Virus record (IMG/VR): IMGVR_UViG_3300025012_000046
Coordinates: 35,506-99,505 of that record
DNA length: 64,000 nucleotides
Strand: one strand, 5' to 3'
DNA from: a virus
This document shows, one piece after another, positions 55,095 to 64,000 of the stretch (position 1 is its first letter; each line of letters begins with the position of its first letter). The notes beneath the pieces were generated by a model. It made no database searches. It was not told the origin of the DNA and saw nothing but the letters and a program-made list of their open reading frames with translations. Both the position numbers and the translations under genes were made by a program.

Positions 55095-55810
55095 TTAAGC
55101 TGCTAGTTTAATTCCATGTTCGCTTAGCTTTTCTTCAATAAAGTTGAGTAGTTGTAGTAAATAAGCTTCTCTTTCTGGAGTAATAAAATTTATCTTAGTT
55201 TCGTAGGTGATTGGGTCTTTTGCGTTCTTACTTATGTTGCAATTCTGACATAGTATTTGTATGTTTTCTGGCCCATTATACTTATACTTACTCTTTGGGT
55301 ATATATGGTCTACGTGGCCCTTGGCTCCTTTTTTAGAAAAGACATAACCACAATATACACACTTACCTGATTGCTTTTTATAGGCTTCGTGTATATCCTG
55401 CCCAGTTATTACACCTATAAAGTTTTCCTTGTTAGCTAGTTCTTTATTATTATACGCTATACGTGCTTCTCTATTTTCTTGGTAATATTCTCGCTGTCTT
55501 TTATTACGTTCTGGTTTTGTTTTATGCCAATATTTATTGTTACGTTCATTTATCCAGTCTTTGTTCTTTTCGTGATACTCTTTTTGCTCAGCTAAACGTC
55601 TCTCTTTATTGTTAGCGTAGAATTTTCTGTCAGACCTACGCTCAACTTCAGGATTCTCTTTTCTATACTCCACCTTCTTAGCGTATTCACATACTTTACA
55701 TATGTAGTAGGTATATTATTTTTAACTCTATAATCTTCTACAGGTTTATTTTCACCACAACAATTACATATTTTCTTTCCATCAATTACTTTATTTATAA
55801 TTCTACTCAA
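55095..55810 (-). pseudogene. HNH homing endonuclease, frameshifted
   Basis: First frame: GKKICNCCGENKPVEDYRVK (zinc motif) then breaks at PTTYVKYVNTLRR (about 55700). The rest continues in the other frame from an in-frame start at 55673: EYRKENPEVERRSDRKFYAN with a Lys/Glu/Tyr-rich coil, then HNH core KCVYCGYVFSKKGAKGHVDH, IYPKSKYKYNGPENIQILCQ and NCN. A missing T near 55703 would restore TTYCKVCEYAKKVEYRK. It lies between portal and protease, just upstream of promoter copy C. Confidence 0.8.
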
Positions 55811-57296: not shown

Positions 57297-58820
57297 TTAC
57301 ATTTTTACGTAACCAGCCTCGTACATAGCCATTTCGTCTGCGGTCAGATCGTAATCTTTATCTGCGGCTGAGTTGAAGATGTTTACAGCTATACGTTGAT
57401 TTTTACCGTAAGAATATAGGCCGTACCTAGCAGCGTCGGCGCAGTCCCAGTCGGATTTGCGGTCTAGGTCAGCACACCAAGGCTTTGCCCCTTTTGAATT
57501 ACTACTTTCCATAGTAACTTTTGCTTGATTCTCTTTCCACTTCACAGTTAATAATTGTCTTATAGTTTCTGGGCACCTATCCTCAAGCACTATCAACTTT
57601 GACTCACCAGTAGCCTCTGACTTCTGGTAACACAAGCTATTTAGAAACTGTACTGTTTCGCGCATATTCTTTTCAGAGCTATTATAGTAAAAGCCATGCT
57701 CAGCTAAGTCAGCTATACTTTGTGCTGCCGCAGGGTCTGCGTACCGCAGGTCCGGTTCTCTGTCAACAAACTCATTTTCTAGTTCTGCCATATTTACAGC
57801 ATGTTGCGGTGTAGTGGTTTTATTTTTATTGTACTCTGCAAAGAATATATACGTGTCTATTTCTTCTACGTAAACAAAATAAAGAGAACTAGTATAATGG
57901 TTAAACCCTGTGTCCAGCGTATTTACTACTATATTATGCCGTATCCACGTTTCAAGGTGAGGATAGTATTCTGAGTTCCTTACGTTATTTTCGTGACTAA
58001 ATTCATAGAATACCCTACCAGCCCCCGCTGTAAACAATCCAAGTATTTCCTGTTCGAAAACATCAGGTGGTAGTGTTCTTCTTGCATTCTCTATCCACGC
58101 TTTAGGTATAGTTGGGTTACATGCTGTAGGTAAATTAATAGACCAATACCTACTAAAATCTGGGTCTTTGCTTATGCCATAATTGTAGTAAGTGTTTAGC
58201 CAGCCGTCCTCTGGGCTTGAAATAAGGATGGACCTGGAATAACTACTATAATCTGCGGTCATCGGTACTAGTACTTGCTCGTACAAAGTTTTATGAAATT
58301 TCTTAGCCTCATCCAATATAAGCAAACTTACTGCGTTACCAAGTCTACTCTCTACGTTTTCCACTGAAGCTACTGTTAATCTAGCCCCATTAGCAAGTTC
58401 AAGTTCTCTATCTTTTTTACGGTCAACCACTATTTCTATTTTAAGCTTTACTATAATCTCTCTTATTTGCTTAAAAATAATATCGCAGTTGTCTAGTGTG
58501 TAAGAAGCAAGCAGGACGTGGCTGTACGGGATCATAAGCTCCTGCGCGCCCAGTACACTAGCAAACCAGGATTTCCCAAAACGACGACCACAAACCGCTA
58601 CAATAACATCGTAAGCATAATCAAAGTCTAAATCTATACCGTAATGTTGTGCTCTGAGTATAGTCTCTTCTCTAGGTGGAATTCTTTCCTCATAAGCATT
58701 CAATATCTCAACTTGGCCTGGATGAGGCTCTTCGCCTATCATCTTCATAAACGCAAAACTGTTTATCTTACCTTTAAATTGCAAGTATTCTTTTATTTTA
58801 GGGTTTATTATTTTATTCAT
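57297..58820 (-). CDS. Terminase large subunit
   Basis: 507 residues. ATPase: VAVCGRRFGKSWFASV (Walker A, near residue 80), LLILDEAKKFH (Walker B, near 166), ILISSPEDGW (coupling motif near 198). RNase H-like nuclease: VNTLDTGFNHYTS (Asp near 292), ADPAAAQSIADLAEHG (near 350), DWDCADAARYGLYSYG (near 472). Motor for DNA packaging. The small subunit is not seen in the window. GIY-YIG gene lies just upstream. Confidence 0.93.
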   Translation of the reverse strand: MNKIINPKIKEYLQFKGKINSFAFMKMIGEEPHPGQVEILNAYEERIPPREETILRAQHYGIDLDFDYAYDVIVAVCGRRFGKSWFASVLGAQELMIPYSHVLLASYTLDNCDIIFKQIREIIVKLKIEIVVDRKKDRELELANGARLTVASVENVESRLGNAVSLLILDEAKKFHKTLYEQVLVPMTADYSSYSRSILISSPEDGWLNTYYNYGISKDPDFSRYWSINLPTACNPTIPKAWIENARRTLPPDVFEQEILGLFTAGAGRVFYEFSHENNVRNSEYYPHLETWIRHNIVVNTLDTGFNHYTSSLYFVYVEEIDTYIFFAEYNKNKTTTPQHAVNMAELENEFVDREPDLRYADPAAAQSIADLAEHGFYYNSSEKNMRETVQFLNSLCYQKSEATGESKLIVLEDRCPETIRQLLTVKWKENQAKVTMESSNSKGAKPWCADLDRKSDWDCADAARYGLYSYGKNQRIAVNIFNSAADKDYDLTADEMAMYEAGYVKM

Positions 58821-58828
58821 AATTAAAG

Positions 58829-59692
58829 TTAAGCTGCCTTTTTAATGCTATTTATTATTTCGGTATGCTTTTCTTTCAGATATTTAAAGTACTTTTTCTC
58901 AGCTTCCCTGCGCATTGAAACTGCTTCGTCATAGTTAAGTGAAAAGCCCAAATACGTTGAAACGCCATCTACAGTTATTACGGCTTGCCAACCCTTTCCA
59001 GCTTTAGCTACGCCAAAAACCTCGCCATTTTCACATTTCTCAATTGTTTTTAATATGTTACTAGATATTCTTAGTTGCTGCATTTCCTTAGTAACAACAG
59101 GCTTAGTATATTTTCTTGGTTTATCAGATTTTCTTTTAACCTTTCCTTTATTTGCTGCACTAATTTTTCTTTTAGTTTCTTCAGTGTGTGGTCGTCCGGG
59201 CTGGCCTTTCATACGCTCACTTATTGCTTTACGTTGTTCTTCCGGCATAGGTCCGTACGTTATACCCTTGTGCCCTTCTGATATAGCTCTCACCTGTTCT
59301 GGACTTAACTTCCTTCCAGTTAAGGTTTTACTTATTTTCTGTCTTGTTTCTAGCGAAGGCTTCCATCCTTTATTACCCTCGCCACCCTCCACATAATTAG
59401 TAATTGGATGTTTTTGTTCTCTGTAATGTTTTATCCAAAACCGTTCAAAAAACTCCCACTCTTCGTGGTATTTGTAAAAAACAGGCTCAAGTATTACAAA
59501 CTCAGGGCGTACTCCTTCAGATAGTAGTTTTAAAATCCAATTATTTTTATATGATTTTCTTTTGCCAGCTTTTGCTTCTTTTATGTGATCTTTCAGTCTA
59601 CTGAAAGGGTCATTTGACTTTCCAACATAACGCACAACTTCAGGTTCTCTAGGATCAACCAACTTGTAAATATATGTTATTCGTTCTTTCAC
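58829..59692 (-). CDS. GIY-YIG homing endonuclease, NUMOD and AP2 domains
   Basis: 287 residues, intact. Core TYIYKLVDPREPEVVRYVGK near residue 6 (catalytic Tyr, Arg) and KSNDPFSRLKDHIKEAKAGK; NYVEGGEGNKGWKPSLETR. NUMOD3 repeats near 115-200 (RQKISKTLTGRKLSPEQ; KRKISAANKGKVKRKSD). C-terminal AP2-like domain (WQAVITVDGVSTYLGFSLNY). Probably targets the terminase gene, into whose 5' side it is inserted. Confidence 0.88.
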   Translation of the reverse strand: MKERITYIYKLVDPREPEVVRYVGKSNDPFSRLKDHIKEAKAGKRKSYKNNWILKLLSEGVRPEFVILEPVFYKYHEEWEFFERFWIKHYREQKHPITNYVEGGEGNKGWKPSLETRQKISKTLTGRKLSPEQVRAISEGHKGITYGPMPEEQRKAISERMKGQPGRPHTEETKRKISAANKGKVKRKSDKPRKYTKPVVTKEMQQLRISSNILKTIEKCENGEVFGVAKAGKGWQAVITVDGVSTYLGFSLNYDEAVSMRREAEKKYFKYLKEKHTEIINSIKKAA

Positions 59693-59790: not shown

Positions 59791-60231
59791 TTATTTACCT
59801 ACCTGCTCAACCTTCGTATGGTTATTAAAGTCATTTTGCATCTTATTCACTGCAAATACAAAACCAACACCAGACAGAATAAAAGCAGTAATTATACTGG
59901 CCAGTATAGTGTTACGTATAAACTTTATTTCATTCCTAGTCTCTTCTAAAGTTTTTACTCTAAGTTCCTGCTCTTGCACCTTAAGCTCTTGTATATTTAT
60001 CTTCTCACTAAGCGCATCTATTTTATGAAATAGTTCTCTATGTGTCTTAGATGCTTCTTCTAGTACTTTGTTTATATTCAATACTTGGTTCAGCGCTTGT
60101 TCTATCTTTGGAATATACTCAGATAGTTTACTGATGAACGCCTTAATGTCGTCTATCTTTCCGTCTAAGTTTTTTATCTGCTCAGCTTGCTTAAGGTGTT
60201 CGTCGCAGTGTTCCATGTATATAGACCTCAT
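59791..60231 (-). CDS. Coiled-coil membrane protein (XhlA/holin-like?)
   Basis: 146 residues. Residues 10-105 are one long coiled coil (LDGKIDDIKAFISKLSEYIP; NINKVLEEASKTHRELFHKI; VQEQELRVKTLEETRNEIKF), then one membrane helix near 110-128 (TILASIITAFILSGVGFVFA) and a short tail. This plan is like XhlA-type lysis accessories, though longer. Behind promoter copy D, it is among the first late products. Holin function is inference. Confidence 0.6.
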   Translation of the reverse strand: MRSIYMEHCDEHLKQAEQIKNLDGKIDDIKAFISKLSEYIPKIEQALNQVLNINKVLEEASKTHRELFHKIDALSEKINIQELKVQEQELRVKTLEETRNEIKFIRNTILASIITAFILSGVGFVFAVNKMQNDFNNHTKVEQVGK

Positions 60232-60249: not shown

Positions 60250-60296
60250 CCTACTATATTTATATACGCAAAAACAGCAAAAATTATTAATTTTTA
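60250..60296 (-). promoter_or_regulatory. T4-type late promoter, copy D
   Basis: TATAAATA at 60257-60264 (minus) in TTTTGCGTATATAAATATAG with the AAAATTAATAATTTTT element upstream overlapping the stop of the glycosyltransferase gene. 19 bases before the ATG of the membrane protein gene. Confidence 0.8.
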
Positions 60297-61039
60297 TTCC
60301 ATATTTTTTTCTTGTAGTTATACTTTTCTTCGTCTAGTACCCAATCTTTAATGCTAAGTTCTGGATTATTATACGGAAATATGTATTTTTCGTCTCCTGG
60401 TGTCCCGCCCCACTTACTTACAAAGTAGTCACCATTCATAAAAAAGTTATTATTGTTAGCTGAGCCATAGTTCTCATCAATTCGTATTGTGGCTGAGCCG
60501 TAATGTTCAAACTTAGTTTGATCACCTACGTAATCCCACTTAATTCCAGATAAAAGTACGCGGTAATGATAGTCGTTGTCTTCCCAGTAGCAGGGGATAT
60601 ACGACAGGTCAAAGTCACCAACTACTTCATAGCATTTTTTAGTTATACACCAACAGTTCCAACTATACTCTCTGGTAACAGCAAAGTCTAGACCTTGACT
60701 TTCAATTTCATTTATAAAACCAACTAAAAAGTCATCCCTAAATTCTGTGTCAGAACCAACCACTACCAGCGCGTCAATGTCTTCGTTATCTTCAAAGGCT
60801 ACTTGTAGCAGCCTGTTCCAACTCCCAGAGCAACCATAGTGGTCACTGTCTCCGAAACCACCAACGCCAATCTCATTAAAAACTTCACGCTCTATTACAT
60901 CTTTAAACACTTCTTCCCACTTATATCCATCAAAGTAAACTAGCCTGTCCACCAAAAAATCCAGTTTAGGCCAGCTTCTGATACACTTCTCTAAAAGTTT
61001 AGGATTACTAAACGCGGCTGTTGCTAGTAAATATCTCAC
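60287..61039 (-). CDS. Glycosyltransferase family 2-like protein
   Basis: 250 residues. GT-A fold features: N-terminal YLLATAAFSNPKLLEKCIRS, GCSGSWNRLLQVAFED, then VVVGSDTEFRD (DxD-like metal site in SDTE near 95) and YWEDNDYHYRVLLSG near 150 (ED-Y motif). Fits a nucleotide-sugar dependent transferase. Part of a four-enzyme sugar/radical SAM cluster; target unknown. Confidence 0.75.
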   Translation of the reverse strand: MRYLLATAAFSNPKLLEKCIRSWPKLDFLVDRLVYFDGYKWEEVFKDVIEREVFNEIGVGGFGDSDHYGCSGSWNRLLQVAFEDNEDIDALVVVGSDTEFRDDFLVGFINEIESQGLDFAVTREYSWNCWCITKKCYEVVGDFDLSYIPCYWEDNDYHYRVLLSGIKWDYVGDQTKFEHYGSATIRIDENYGSANNNNFFMNGDYFVSKWGGTPGDEKYIFPYNNPELSIKDWVLDEEKYNYKKKIWNKN

Positions 61040-61761
61040 TAAAACACCTCTGGGTCATTTTCATGTGCTTTGCATTCCGCTACTATTTGTTCTTCAGTTA
61101 TACGGTGATGCTGAATGGTTAGTCCTTTGTTTAAGTTTGACTGTGACTGTCGTTCTTTCCTGTTCTTAATCCTACGCTCTATCACATAAGAAGGATCGGC
61201 CATACTCCAATGAGCACCTTCATAACCCCATCCAAAGTAGTTTTCATAATGCGCGAAGTGTTTGTCGCCCAGCCAGCACTCATGTATACCAAGACCCCAA
61301 CTAAAATTGTCCATTCTACCAAATACTACGTTAGGCTTTATGTACATAGGATCAAGATAACCATGTACACGTTGGTTCTTAATAGGCTTATTTATATCTA
61401 AATCTACGTCTGTATAGTGCCTAAAAACATTATAAAGCCTAGTAAACGTGACAGGATTTTCGTCTAGCGCGTATTGGTAGTTAAATATAAATTCATCAGA
61501 ATCCACTAAAATACACCTATCTGCGTCAACTTTTTTATAGAACGCATTGAAATGCGCAGTCTTTAGTATATCGTCCATTCCGTCAGGAAATGTGTATTCG
61601 TAAACTTTCACATTATTATATCTTTCGACTATTTCAAGTGTTTTGTCGTTAGTATCCGAATCAAGGAACAAGTGTATTTTATCTACATATTTGTAATGAT
61701 TTAAAAAGAAAGGAGCAAGAAACTCCTCGTTGTACCACATGGTCATAATTTGCGTGTTCAT
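61039..61761 (-). CDS. Glycosyltransferase, GT-A type (GT2/GT92-like)
   Basis: 240 residues. IMTMWYNEEFLAPFFLNHYK (nucleotide-binding strand), FLDSDTNDKTLEIVERYN, then RCILVDSDEFIFNYQ (DSD metal site near residue 87-89), and a late HWSMADPSYVIERRIKN. Stop of the next gene touches. Different from the 250-residue enzyme and probably adds a second sugar. Confidence 0.8.
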   Translation of the reverse strand: MNTQIMTMWYNEEFLAPFFLNHYKYVDKIHLFLDSDTNDKTLEIVERYNNVKVYEYTFPDGMDDILKTAHFNAFYKKVDADRCILVDSDEFIFNYQYALDENPVTFTRLYNVFRHYTDVDLDINKPIKNQRVHGYLDPMYIKPNVVFGRMDNFSWGLGIHECWLGDKHFAHYENYFGWGYEGAHWSMADPSYVIERRIKNRKERQSQSNLNKGLTIQHHRITEEQIVAECKAHENDPEVF

Positions 61762-61762
61762 G

Positions 61763-62308
61763 TTAGCCTTTATATTTTACCCAACTAAAGTCACAAAATG
61801 TTTTGTCAGGGCCATTAAAAAAGAATTCATCTACTGCCTGTGTTATACCGCCGTAGCAACTATTATAATCATGGCCGCCAATAATTCCCCCAACTTTTAC
61901 TTTTGGCCAGTATAACTCTAACTCGCCCTTAACATGCCCATACTCGTGGCAACTGTCTATATAAATAAAGTCTAAGCTATTATCAGAAAACTTATCATAA
62001 ACTTCTAGTGAATTTCCTTTTACTTTTTCTACTTTTCCGTCAACCACCCAGTCAAACATATTGGTGTCAAAAGTTTTCTCAACATCTTCCAGGTCGTACT
62101 GGACAGTAGTTATATCATTTTTATCTAACCCGTTTTGCCATGCGTCTACTGCATACAACTTATTTATTTTTAAGCTTGACATGAACATTGTGGTGCTTTC
62201 TCCAGCAAAGCACCCAATCTCTACCATAGTTATACTAGTAGGCAGCAGTTTAATAAGATCATACAAACCATCTCGCATACAGCCGCTAGGCCTCATCACA
62301 TCTATCAC
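61763..62308 (-). CDS. SAM-dependent methyltransferase (class I)
   Basis: 181 residues. Motif I VEIGCFAGESTTMFM near 29-43, acidic loop YAVDAWQNG near 53-57, DFIYIDSCHEYGHVKGELE near 112, GGIIGGHDYN near 139: the layout of Methyltransf_24-type enzymes that often modify sugars or polyketides. Within the sugar cluster it may methylate a glycan, capping it. Overlaps the radical SAM gene by four bases. Confidence 0.82.
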   Translation of the reverse strand: MIDVMRPSGCMRDGLYDLIKLLPTSITMVEIGCFAGESTTMFMSSLKINKLYAVDAWQNGLDKNDITTVQYDLEDVEKTFDTNMFDWVVDGKVEKVKGNSLEVYDKFSDNSLDFIYIDSCHEYGHVKGELELYWPKVKVGGIIGGHDYNSCYGGITQAVDEFFFNGPDKTFCDFSWVKYKG

Positions 62309-63189
62309 AATTCCCCCTTAAACCCTAAACCCTCACCACAAGTAGTATCGTCTGCAATATCTCCGCGATAATTACCAGGAGTCCAGTTGGGTATAGCTTG
62401 TTTTATTTCGTCTAAAGTTATTTTTCTATCAAACAGTTCCACGTCTGACTCAGACAGTTTGTTAAGACCCTTATCCTTAAACATTTGAAGTAAATTTGGC
62501 GTAAATTTCTCAGTTTTCTTTTTTATAAGCTCACGCTCCATAGGAATAGCCATACCACACAAACCACACAACTTGCGTACTTGCTTTTCATATGTTTCTG
62601 GTTCTACCTTCCACCAACCGTCAACCACAGGCCAAGCGTTAGCGCCATCAAAAAAAATGTAGTCTAGTGCTGCTCCGACTTCACACCAATACGCTCCGTA
62701 GGCATTGACCGTTCCACACCACTGTTCATCTACCCAACAGTTATTGATAAGTGTATTCCTAAGCTCCTCGTCATCTATTACTTCATCAATAGCAACAGTT
62801 AGTGGTTGGTGCTTACAAGTGTTCTCTTGAAACTCGTTATGCTCGTTATACGCGATAAAACTAAACGTTTCATCTATAACTGGTAAGTACTCTCTGTATT
62901 TAGGCCCACCTGAAGTCCACAGGTAGCACTTCTCTTTTGGAAACTTTTTTCTAAGTATTTCACAAAACTCTATAAAATTTGGATGTAGTACTGGCTCTCC
63001 ACCTATAATGCCTATTATGTTAGGCCAGTCTTTCAGCGTATCAGTGGCAGTCTCAAACTGCTCTATAGTCATGTGCTTACGCTGATCTTTTCTTAGGTGT
63101 CTATTGTACCGTGAACAGTAGAGGCAGCTATGCCCACAATAATTCGTGATATCCAGCTGCATTGTCCATTTTTCTTTAATGATTTTCAT
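62305..63189 (-). CDS. Radical SAM enzyme
   Basis: 294 residues. [4Fe-4S] motif Cys-x3-Cys-x2-Cys (NYCGHSCLYCSR near residues 18-25), then GIIGGEPVLHP (GGEP, SAM site near 62) and a strand YLWTSGG. More Cys in the second half (CWVDEQWCG, YWCEV, CGLCGM) could hold an auxiliary cluster as in SPASM-type proteins. Such enzymes do epimerisation, dehydration or peptide modification. Next to a methyltransferase and transferases, a sugar-modifying role is inferred. Confidence 0.85.
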   Translation of the reverse strand: MKIIKEKWTMQLDITNYCGHSCLYCSRYNRHLRKDQRKHMTIEQFETATDTLKDWPNIIGIIGGEPVLHPNFIEFCEILRKKFPKEKCYLWTSGGPKYREYLPVIDETFSFIAYNEHNEFQENTCKHQPLTVAIDEVIDDEELRNTLINNCWVDEQWCGTVNAYGAYWCEVGAALDYIFFDGANAWPVVDGWWKVEPETYEKQVRKLCGLCGMAIPMERELIKKKTEKFTPNLLQMFKDKGLNKLSESDVELFDRKITLDEIKQAIPNWTPGNYRGDIADDTTCGEGLGFKGEL

Positions 63190-63192
63190 AAC

Positions 63193-63264
63193 TTACAAAC
63201 ACCTCAAATAAAAGTCGATAAGCATTAAAATTGTTGTTACATAGTCATACTGCCACGCTAGCAT
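63193..63264 (-). CDS. Tiny peptide gene (tentative)
   Basis: 23 residues, MLAWQYDYVTTILMLIDFYL followed by RCL. Strong GAGGGGG six bases before the ATG; overlaps the end of the glycosyltransferase gene and precedes the radical SAM gene by three bases. Could be a leader that couples translation. It is not clearly a modified-peptide precursor. Confidence 0.3.
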   Translation of the reverse strand: MLAWQYDYVTTILMLIDFYLRCL

Positions 63265-64000
63265 GTTACCCCCTCAACTACAACAGAGTCTTCAACCAAC
63301 ACTCTGTCAATAAGTTTCTCAAATTCACTACAAGCAAAGTCCCAATTAAATTCTTTACTATTTGCAAACTTAATTGCCTCAGTAGCGTATTTATCCCGCT
63401 TAGTCTTATTGCTAATCATCTCTTTCATAGCGTTAGCAAAATCATGGGGAGTCACTATTGGGCGCATAAAAGGCCCAGACTGGCCCCCAAGATAAACCTT
63501 CTGTGCCGGAACAAGGATACCGTGATCTTTAGTCATAAGCTCTATACTTCCAGCACCTTTGACTCCTATTTGTGGAAGTCCAGCAGCCATACTTTCTAAA
63601 TTTCCTAATTCAAAACCTCCACCAAAACAAGTACTTACGAAACAATCTCCTAAATTATAGACCTCATTTATACCTTCGTCGGTGAGTCCAGCATCAGCTT
63701 TAGCAGAACTATTATTGGTAAATATAATTCTATCTGCCGGTGCGTCTACTTGGTCGATAACGTCCAACAAATTCCACCCAGTATCCTGTACCATACATCC
63801 CAACACAAGCCAACTATTTCTATACTTCTTGTTAACTTCCTTAAAAGCTTGTATAAGCGTAGGCTGCTGCTTTCTAGGAGAATTCCTGCCTACGTAAACA
63901 AACACAAAGTCATTTTCTGGTATACTATACTTAGACCTTAGTTCTGCTTTATTGTCCAACGGCTTGTAGGTGTCTAAGTCAACTCCATGGAGTTGACTTA
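63258..64000 (-). CDS. Glycosyltransferase family 4 (C-terminal part, cut by window)
   Basis: About 247 residues visible, the frame is open to the window end (HGVDLDTYKPLDNKAELR before the TTG at 63959), so the start lies outside. GT-B C-terminal domain: FVYVGRNSPRKQQPTLIQAF, SWLVLGCMVQD, then GDCFVSTCFGGGFELGNLES (donor-site Glu motif) and MAAGLPQIGVKGAGSIELM. Retaining-type transferase likely acting first in the sugar cluster. Confidence 0.85.
   Translation of the reverse strand, partial: SQLHGVDLDTYKPLDNKAELRSKYSIPENDFVFVYVGRNSPRKQQPTLIQAFKEVNKKYRNSWLVLGCMVQDTGWNLLDVIDQVDAPADRIIFTNNSSAKADAGLTDEGINEVYNLGDCFVSTCFGGGFELGNLESMAAGLPQIGVKGAGSIELMTKDHGILVPAQKVYLGGQSGPFMRPIVTPHDFANAMKEMISNKTKRDKYATEAIKFANSKEFNWDFACSEFEKLIDRVLVEDSVVVEGVTC
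63975..64000. repeat. 26-base perfect palindrome at the window end
   Basis: TAAGTCAACTCCA followed directly by its reverse complement, ending on the last base of the window. It overlaps the glycosyltransferase frame (HGVDL). May be a true site or a contig-end artefact. Confidence 0.6.

Follow-up and report, generated by a model that had tools for sequence, protein, structure and literature searches.

A radical SAM enzyme paired with a PF13704 glycosyltransferase in a candidate protein-glycosylation cassette of an uncultured phage

Known phage cassettes and the organization of the locus

Virion glycosylation has so far been shown in few cultured phages. In mycobacteriophages, glycans are found on the capsid and on the tail tube (Freeman 2023, as cited in PMC12619734), and in the mycobacteriophage Corndog a methyltransferase and glycosyltransferases (GTs) are encoded between the portal and the protease, for which the authors suggest a function in capsid modification (PMC4351075). 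Corndog-type (Cluster O) cassettes comprise an O-methyltransferase and several GTs within the structural operon. A comparable arrangement occurs in the cultured Synechococcus phage S-CBS4 (NC_016766, gp014-gp016), in the order portal, GT4, galactosyl transferase, SAM methyltransferase, HNH, small genes, protease and capsid. The cassette described here resembles both: GT and methyltransferase genes in or next to a structural operon, as in the Corndog type, were found in the window (the whole stretch of 64,000 nucleotides analysed), next to TerL, and PHROGs identified structural flanks in all ten other phage loci tested, although the cluster of L015 is divergent from TerL. However, the Corndog-type cassette comes from other hosts, and a radical SAM enzyme and a PF13704 GT have not been reported in it, whereas here these two form a conserved and even fused core pair. 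Likewise, while S-CBS4 has homologues of the window's GT4 (27% identity) and galactosyl transferase (33% over 85 aa), it lacks both the radical SAM enzyme and the PF13704 GT, and its methyltransferase shows no match to ours.

The window ends with the final base of a 99.5-kb IMG/VR record, and its terminal part (60287-64000) contains five ORFs, all on the minus strand. The initial annotation had described them as contiguous or overlapping genes for GTs, a radical SAM enzyme and a methyltransferase, and Pfam and PHROG searches confirmed that all five are real, contiguous and correctly typed. From the record end inwards they encode the C-terminal ~245 aa of a GT4-type enzyme (63258-64000; Pfam Glycos_transf_1, 3.5e-12; phrog_2170, 1.5e-25), a radical SAM enzyme of 294 aa (62305-63189; Radical_SAM, PF04055, 2e-9), a SAM-dependent methyltransferase of the MT24 family with 181 aa (61763-62308; Methyltransf_24, 2.1e-19), a GT-A enzyme of the Glyco_tranf_2_4 (PF13704) type with 240 aa, hereafter GT2_4 (61039-61761; Pfam, 1.4e-6), and a second, GT-A-like enzyme of 250 aa (60287-61039), which lacks a Pfam GT match and was recognized only by a PHROG (phrog_29879, 'galactosyl transferase', 1.9e-12). 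The genes from the radical SAM enzyme to the second GT-A (62305-63189 through 60287-61039) touch or overlap each other. A gene for a coiled-coil protein that has a single hydrophobic segment (59791-60231) and a minus-strand GIY-YIG/NUMOD3 homing endonuclease gene (58829-59692; NUMOD3, 6e-10; GIY-YIG, 5e-6) separate this cluster from the gene for a T5-like terminase large subunit (TerL; 57297-58820, minus strand; phrog_2, 1.8e-29). This T5-like TerL (27-28% identity) is matched across 80% or more of its length by 774 phage records, all of them below 60% identity.

Because the record ends at the last base of the window, the GT4 gene is cut, as had been annotated, with its N-terminus running off the end. 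Measured against the complete GT4 of L015 (447 aa), to which it is 58% identical over 240 aa, it is short of about 200 N-terminal residues. The last 26 bp of the record, TAAGTCAACTCCATGGAGTTGACTTA, form a perfect palindrome, which is probably an assembly artefact, and hence the first residues of the truncated GT4, 'SQL', are probably not real. A candidate late-promoter motif, TATAAATA, was found 11 times against 6.3 expected, a number reached in 5 of 100 shuffles and not significant, and a scan for sigma-70 promoters and terminators across 54-64 kb of the window gave results close to background.

Conservation of the radical SAM and PF13704 glycosyltransferase pair

A single query with the radical SAM enzyme recovered just one relative, and alignments were needed to recover the rest. 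These were grouped into 36 clusters at 90% identity and ranked by score, the window being additional to this count. A PF13704 GT is encoded within ~2.2 kb of the radical SAM gene in 20 of the 21 best-scoring clusters, as against 1 of the 15 more distant ones. When three loci that had been found via the GT search are left aside the count is 17 of 18, and addition of the window makes it 18 of 19 close homologues. The two domains are fused in a single protein in the viral locus L072 and, separately, in the bacterial loci L125 and L135; in L017 it is the MT24 and GT2_4 domains that are fused. The gene order radical SAM-MT24-GT2_4 is shared by the window, L008, L009, L011 and L023. These observations show that the pairing of the radical SAM enzyme with a PF13704 GT is near-obligate across unrelated phages and bacteria. 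In some podovirus-like contigs (L027, L034), a radical SAM gene without a neighbouring GT is flanked by what appear to be the scaffold gene and the capsid gene, and the radical SAM proteins of L013 and L014 have only the N-terminal core in common with that of the window.

The pair of radical SAM enzyme and PF13704 GT, often together with an MT24 enzyme, is found again in numerous uncultured phages that are unrelated to one another, in most cases within head or tail operons, and is evidently a mobile module. Among cultured phage records none had a full-length match to the pair: in tblastn searches GT2_4 returned zero matches and the radical SAM enzyme matched only in its N-terminal core, at a coverage of at most 43%. 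All five gene types recur in two related phage contigs, L015 and L016, which bears out the earlier view of a set that travels together over one of scattered remnants. The second GT-A is 54% identical to its homologues in both contigs. The methyltransferase is more variable: enzymes with 25-33% identity to that of the window occupy the same position in L008, L009 and L011, the MT24 of L015 and L016 is a different one, and the fused methyltransferase of L006, considered as a possible orthologue, is not detectably orthologous. Given the last two observations, the methyltransferase of the cassette is exchangeable.

Predicted chemistry of the core enzymes

The solved structures closest to the model of the radical SAM enzyme are SpeY and BtrN, of the spectinomycin and butirosin pathways respectively, which are dehydrogenases of small-molecule aminocyclitols, i.e. 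sugar-like alcohols. In BtrN the twitch site contains four cysteines (PMC6231123, PMC9012708), of which one lies before and one after a β-hairpin and two past the second helix (PMC6231123). The enzyme from the window has the radical SAM motif CX3CX2C (Cys18/22/25), which is invariant in 35 of 35 homologues, and beyond it four further cysteines that are equally invariant (Cys151, 169, 208 and 211; 35/35), besides Cys158, which is present in 23 of 35. The extra cysteines remarked upon in the initial annotation are thus a conserved feature. An AlphaFold2 model (pLDDT 86.8, pTM 0.85) recovered SpeY (8e-9) and BtrN (8e-7) as the best PDB matches in Foldseek searches (probability 1.00, TM-scores ~0.42-0.55), and the placement of the extra cysteines relative to the modelled helices 170-180 and 197-208 fits the published description of BtrN (PMC6231123). 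SpeY, BtrN and our enzyme would hence have in common the fold, the RS-cluster motif and four cysteines for one fully ligated auxiliary cluster. Unlike them, the phage protein has a GT as its partner, shows only 14-16% identity to them and falls below the cut-off of every curated NCBIfam model; a PDB profile search likewise gave an alignment confined to the N-terminal core. Based on the cysteine set and the modelled fold, we predict a four-Cys twitch-type dehydrogenase, which gives a more definite form to the "unusual chemistry" that had been proposed for it.

Its partner GT2_4 is a member of PF13704, scoring 29.1 bits against a gathering cut-off of 27.5. The best PDB matches of its AlphaFold2 model (pLDDT 80.8, pTM 0.84) are the glycocin S-glycosyltransferases SunS and ThuS (Foldseek, 4e-7), which are soluble, peptide-acting GT2 enzymes. 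Since identities to these closest solved folds are 11-17% and the TM-scores are moderate (~0.48 for SunS/ThuS, ~0.5 overall), the substrate class read from such matches is a guess.

The likeness to SunS and ThuS raises the alternative that the radical SAM enzyme acts directly on a virion protein, oxidising or crosslinking a side chain, with the GT using or accompanying this modification. Consistent with it, peptides are the substrates of many SPASM/twitch enzymes (PMC6231123), and in contigs of the L027/L034 type the GT-less radical SAM gene overlaps the apparent scaffold gene and precedes the capsid gene. However, the best structural matches are dehydrogenases of small molecules, the first core strand of the model begins at residue 9, which leaves the enzyme without an N-terminal peptide-binding domain, and a GT is nearly always present beside its close homologues; we therefore regard direct protein modification as rather unlikely.

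Candidate targets of the glycan

The initial annotation suggested that the genes could build a modified glycan, a reading that our analysis upholds, on a virion protein, the host surface or DNA. Of these the virion is now favoured. The late position that had been adduced for a virion or surface role is a weak argument: in the window TerL is near and on the same strand, but in L015 the cluster lies on the strand opposite to TerL and portal, continuing co-directionally into PhoH and small genes, so that the timing of the cluster is not conserved in the lineage. The company of PhoH and small non-structural genes in L015 would suit remodelling of the host's LPS or capsule glycans, for instance in superinfection exclusion, and phage GTs with such surface-remodelling roles are known (PMC12619734). 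Yet copies of the cassette are located within head and tail operons, and by simple hydropathy none of the five proteins has a segment above 1.4. In 19 phage neighbourhoods the only polytopic membrane proteins were the tape measure and one epimerase, an apparent false positive. Serotype-converting gtr systems require membrane components, and polytopic membrane proteins of this kind were not found in the operon by simple hydropathy. Host-surface modification is disfavoured on this account, and we consider it unlikely.

Hypermodification of the phage DNA with sugars appears quite improbable. Diverse DNA glycans are attributed to virus-encoded GTs (Pyle 2024, by its title as cited in PMC12619734), and the best PHROG match of the MT24 gene is labelled 'DNA methyltransferase'. 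Against this, for the one route to a reactive base that was covered, no thymidylate-synthase/hydroxymethylase gene (PF00303) was found in the 99.5-kb, possibly incomplete record, control genomes being positive; the sole thymidylate synthase in the record is ThyX, and the bacterial relatives sit among protein-glycosylation genes. A radical SAM enzyme, a GT and a methyltransferase also make up a common RiPP toolkit, and a 23-aa ORF (63193-63264) between the GT4 and radical SAM genes might be taken for the precursor of a glycosylated, methylated peptide made by a small RiPP or natural-product cluster carried on the phage. This ORF is missing from L015 and L016, where the abutting genes leave no room for it, so no conserved precursor was found; a transporter or protease was not seen either, and the cassette resides in structural operons, making such a cluster very improbable.

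We accordingly favour, with somewhat better than even confidence, the reading that the five genes constitute a cytoplasmic protein-glycosylation cassette, most likely modifying a virion structural protein. GT2_4 would attach the first or an inner sugar, the acceptor being a short glycan or the side chain of a protein, while elongation would be the task of the GT4 and the second GT-A, and O-methylation of a hydroxyl that of the MT24 enzyme. The radical SAM enzyme would use a 5'-deoxyadenosyl radical to remove a hydrogen from a carbinol carbon of the sugar that its GT partner handles, with the auxiliary [4Fe-4S] cluster accepting the second electron to yield a keto-sugar, in a BtrN/SpeY-like chemistry. 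The product would be a methylated and oxidised, non-host glycan on capsid or tail subunits, which might help the virion to adsorb or to withstand host defences or proteases, and could be diversified among close relatives through allele replacement. The prediction of an oxidised and methylated glycan from a radical enzyme partnered, or even fused, with a GT would, if true, represent a new protein-glycan chemistry and a testable way for phages to vary their surface.

The bacterial relatives also point to a protein target, since their clusters are apparent protein-glycosylation gene sets. In L132, from the Geobacterales group, the radical SAM enzyme, GT2_4 and a GT41 enzyme are encoded together, and the TPR/GT41 OGT-like clusters of L132, L133 and L136 resemble the phage cassette as sets for soluble protein O-glycosylation with a homologous radical SAM enzyme. 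The structural-operon location in unrelated phages together with these bacterial clusters is stronger evidence for a protein target than late position. As a more tentative proposal, the radical SAM/GT pair might be a dedicated machine for oxidising a sugar on, or destined for, protein, one that serves phage virions as well as proteins of the bacterial surface, flagellin for example. The close bacterial relatives L006, L131 and L132 showed no adjoining flagellin within the stretch read. Flagellin and flagellar genes, along with GT41, do adjoin the radical SAM gene in L133 and L136, also of the Geobacterales group, whose enzymes differ in belonging to a distant clade without a GT2_4 partner.

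Conservation of the five-gene cluster

The initial annotation's five glycan-related genes (60287-64000) are present on the minus strand where it placed them, at the end of a 99,505-bp IMG/VR virus record whose final 64 kb form the window. Pfam and PHROGs identify them as a GT4 glycosyltransferase (63258-64000), a radical SAM enzyme (62305-63189), a Methyltransf_24 protein (MT24; 61763-62308), a Glyco_tranf_2_4 glycosyltransferase (GT2_4; 61039-61761) and a galactosyltransferase-type GT (GT-A; 60287-61039). These genes touch or overlap, apart from a 68-base space between GT4 and radical SAM, and a T5-like terminase, portal and major head protein lie farther along the same strand. An HNH endonuclease gene between the portal and the next structural gene (55095-55810, minus strand) seems to be broken into two frames, with 55095-55673 in one and 55592-55810 in the other, and is perhaps a decaying homing endonuclease. 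The GT4 gene is truncated where the record ends in a perfect 26-bp palindrome (63975-64000), probably an assembly fold-back.

The relative L015, a 113-kb contig whose TerL and portal share 48% and 55% identity with those of the window, and its sister L016 each have the five gene types (GT4, an MT24-type methyltransferase, radical SAM, GT2_4 and GT-A) together, which thus form a set rather than scattered genes. A 23-aa ORF, MLAWQYDYVTTILMLIDFYLRCL (63193-63264, minus strand), whose start overlaps the GT4 stop, lies between GT4 and radical SAM; it is absent from L015 and L016, and this lack of conservation argues against a RiPP cluster, a highly improbable reading.

The radical SAM-GT2_4 pair in viruses and bacteria

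A search broadened step by step with alignments recovered dozens of viral and some bacterial radical SAM relatives, forming 36 clusters at 90% identity. The radical SAM and GT2_4 genes are linked more tightly than the others: GT2_4 lies within ~2.2 kb in 20 of the 21 top-scoring clusters (17/18 on excluding three that came, with bias, from a GT2_4 search), and in just one of the 15 more distant ones; the window adds a further instance. The two are fused in a viral protein (L072, 553 aa) and in bacterial ones (L125/L135, 574 aa), while viral L017 encodes MT24-GT2_4 as one protein and bacterial L006, adjoined by a giant Ser/Thr-rich repeat protein, joins GT2_4 to a long TPR/methyltransferase-like C-terminus. 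The order radical SAM-MT24-GT2_4 is common to the window and four other loci (L008, L009, L011, L023). As different phage groups share few genes outside the cassette, the module moves between lineages.

The radical SAM gene occurs in 10 of 147 genomes related to an Oryzomonas MAG. Close bacterial versions have GT2_4 adjacent (L131, L132, L134) or fused (L135); L131 also has an MT24 protein, and L132 a GT41 (OGT-type) one (E 1e-106). Alongside two distant-clade versions are GT41 proteins and flagellar genes: by Pfam, flagellin and FlbT in L136 and FlaF in L133, which also has a near-identical flagellin judged by eye. These settings appear to be soluble protein-glycosylation surroundings. That the cassette remodels a host envelope glycan is distinctly unlikely, as a simple hydropathy check found no polytopic membrane protein among the five and no convincing one in 19 phage neighborhoods.

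Predicted chemistry

The structures nearest to the radical SAM model (pLDDT 86.8) are the twitch dehydrogenases SpeY and BtrN (BtrN reaction: PMC9012708), and those nearest to the GT2_4 model are the peptide S-glycosyltransferases SunS/ThuS; at identities of 11-17% and TM ~0.5, these matches support fold class, not substrate. Four extra cysteines, invariant in 35/35 radical SAM homologues, are positioned as in BtrN, whose auxiliary cluster is fully ligated and thought to accept the second electron (PMC6231123). From these likenesses and the cysteine set we infer that the radical SAM enzyme would oxidize a sugar, coupled to protein-directed glycosyl transfer by GT2_4; GT4 and GT-A may extend the glycan, and methylation may occur, before or after oxidation/transfer. 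Hypermodification of phage DNA with sugars is very unlikely, for no PF00303 enzyme was found in the 99,505-bp record, which has ThyX instead. Direct oxidation of a virion protein by the radical SAM enzyme is unlikely; what favors it is mainly that in podovirus-like contigs (L027:6560-9402, L034:5055-8891) the gene stands by itself, flanked by apparent scaffold and capsid genes and overlapping the upstream gene, with no GT found nearby.

Genomic position, precedent and diversification

In most phages the cassette lies between head and tail genes, and a portal, major head, head-tail adaptor or major tail protein was confirmed in 10/10 phage loci tested. This position favors the protein target. 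The structural placement is less clean in the window's own lineage: in L015 the cluster's genes head away from TerL, with transcription continuing into PhoH and small genes, so the initial argument from late timing is not robust. Neighboring genes include a sulfotransferase, sulfatase and SDR epimerase (L017:1711-13867) and LicD with a cytidylyltransferase (L005). In L044:6781-13685, NeuB, UDP-GlcNAc 2-epimerase and a CMP-sugar-type cytidylyltransferase adjoin a distant-clade radical SAM, a group that reads as a viral nonulosonic-acid pathway. Another phage glycan cluster (L021:10223-13360) has a sulfatase-type gene plus SDR epimerases.

By tblastn, neither a GT2_4 match nor a full-length radical SAM match was found in 50,697 phage records. 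The nearest cultured cassette is that of S-CBS4 (portal-GT4-galT-MT-HNH-protease-capsid), and the nearest precedent discussed in the literature is Corndog (PMC4351075); hence we call the window cassette a putative new form of virion-glycosylation cassette.

Around the cluster, L015 and L016 (compared over L015:5357-10359 and L016:1-6337) are 86-94% identical in DNA. Their GT4, MT and GT2_4 proteins are 92-98% identical, with radical SAM at just 56% and GT-A at 65%, and the L016 cluster carries insertions, two HNH-type ORFs, between its genes. The contrast looks like allele replacement, which selection may have caused. Elsewhere (L014:7321-11431, L013:3003-7794), a tail-region protein with ~25 tandem 'YSDHTNTGY'-like repeats is directly followed by three tandem radical SAM/SPASM-type genes, and looks like a virion protein modified by radical SAM enzymes.
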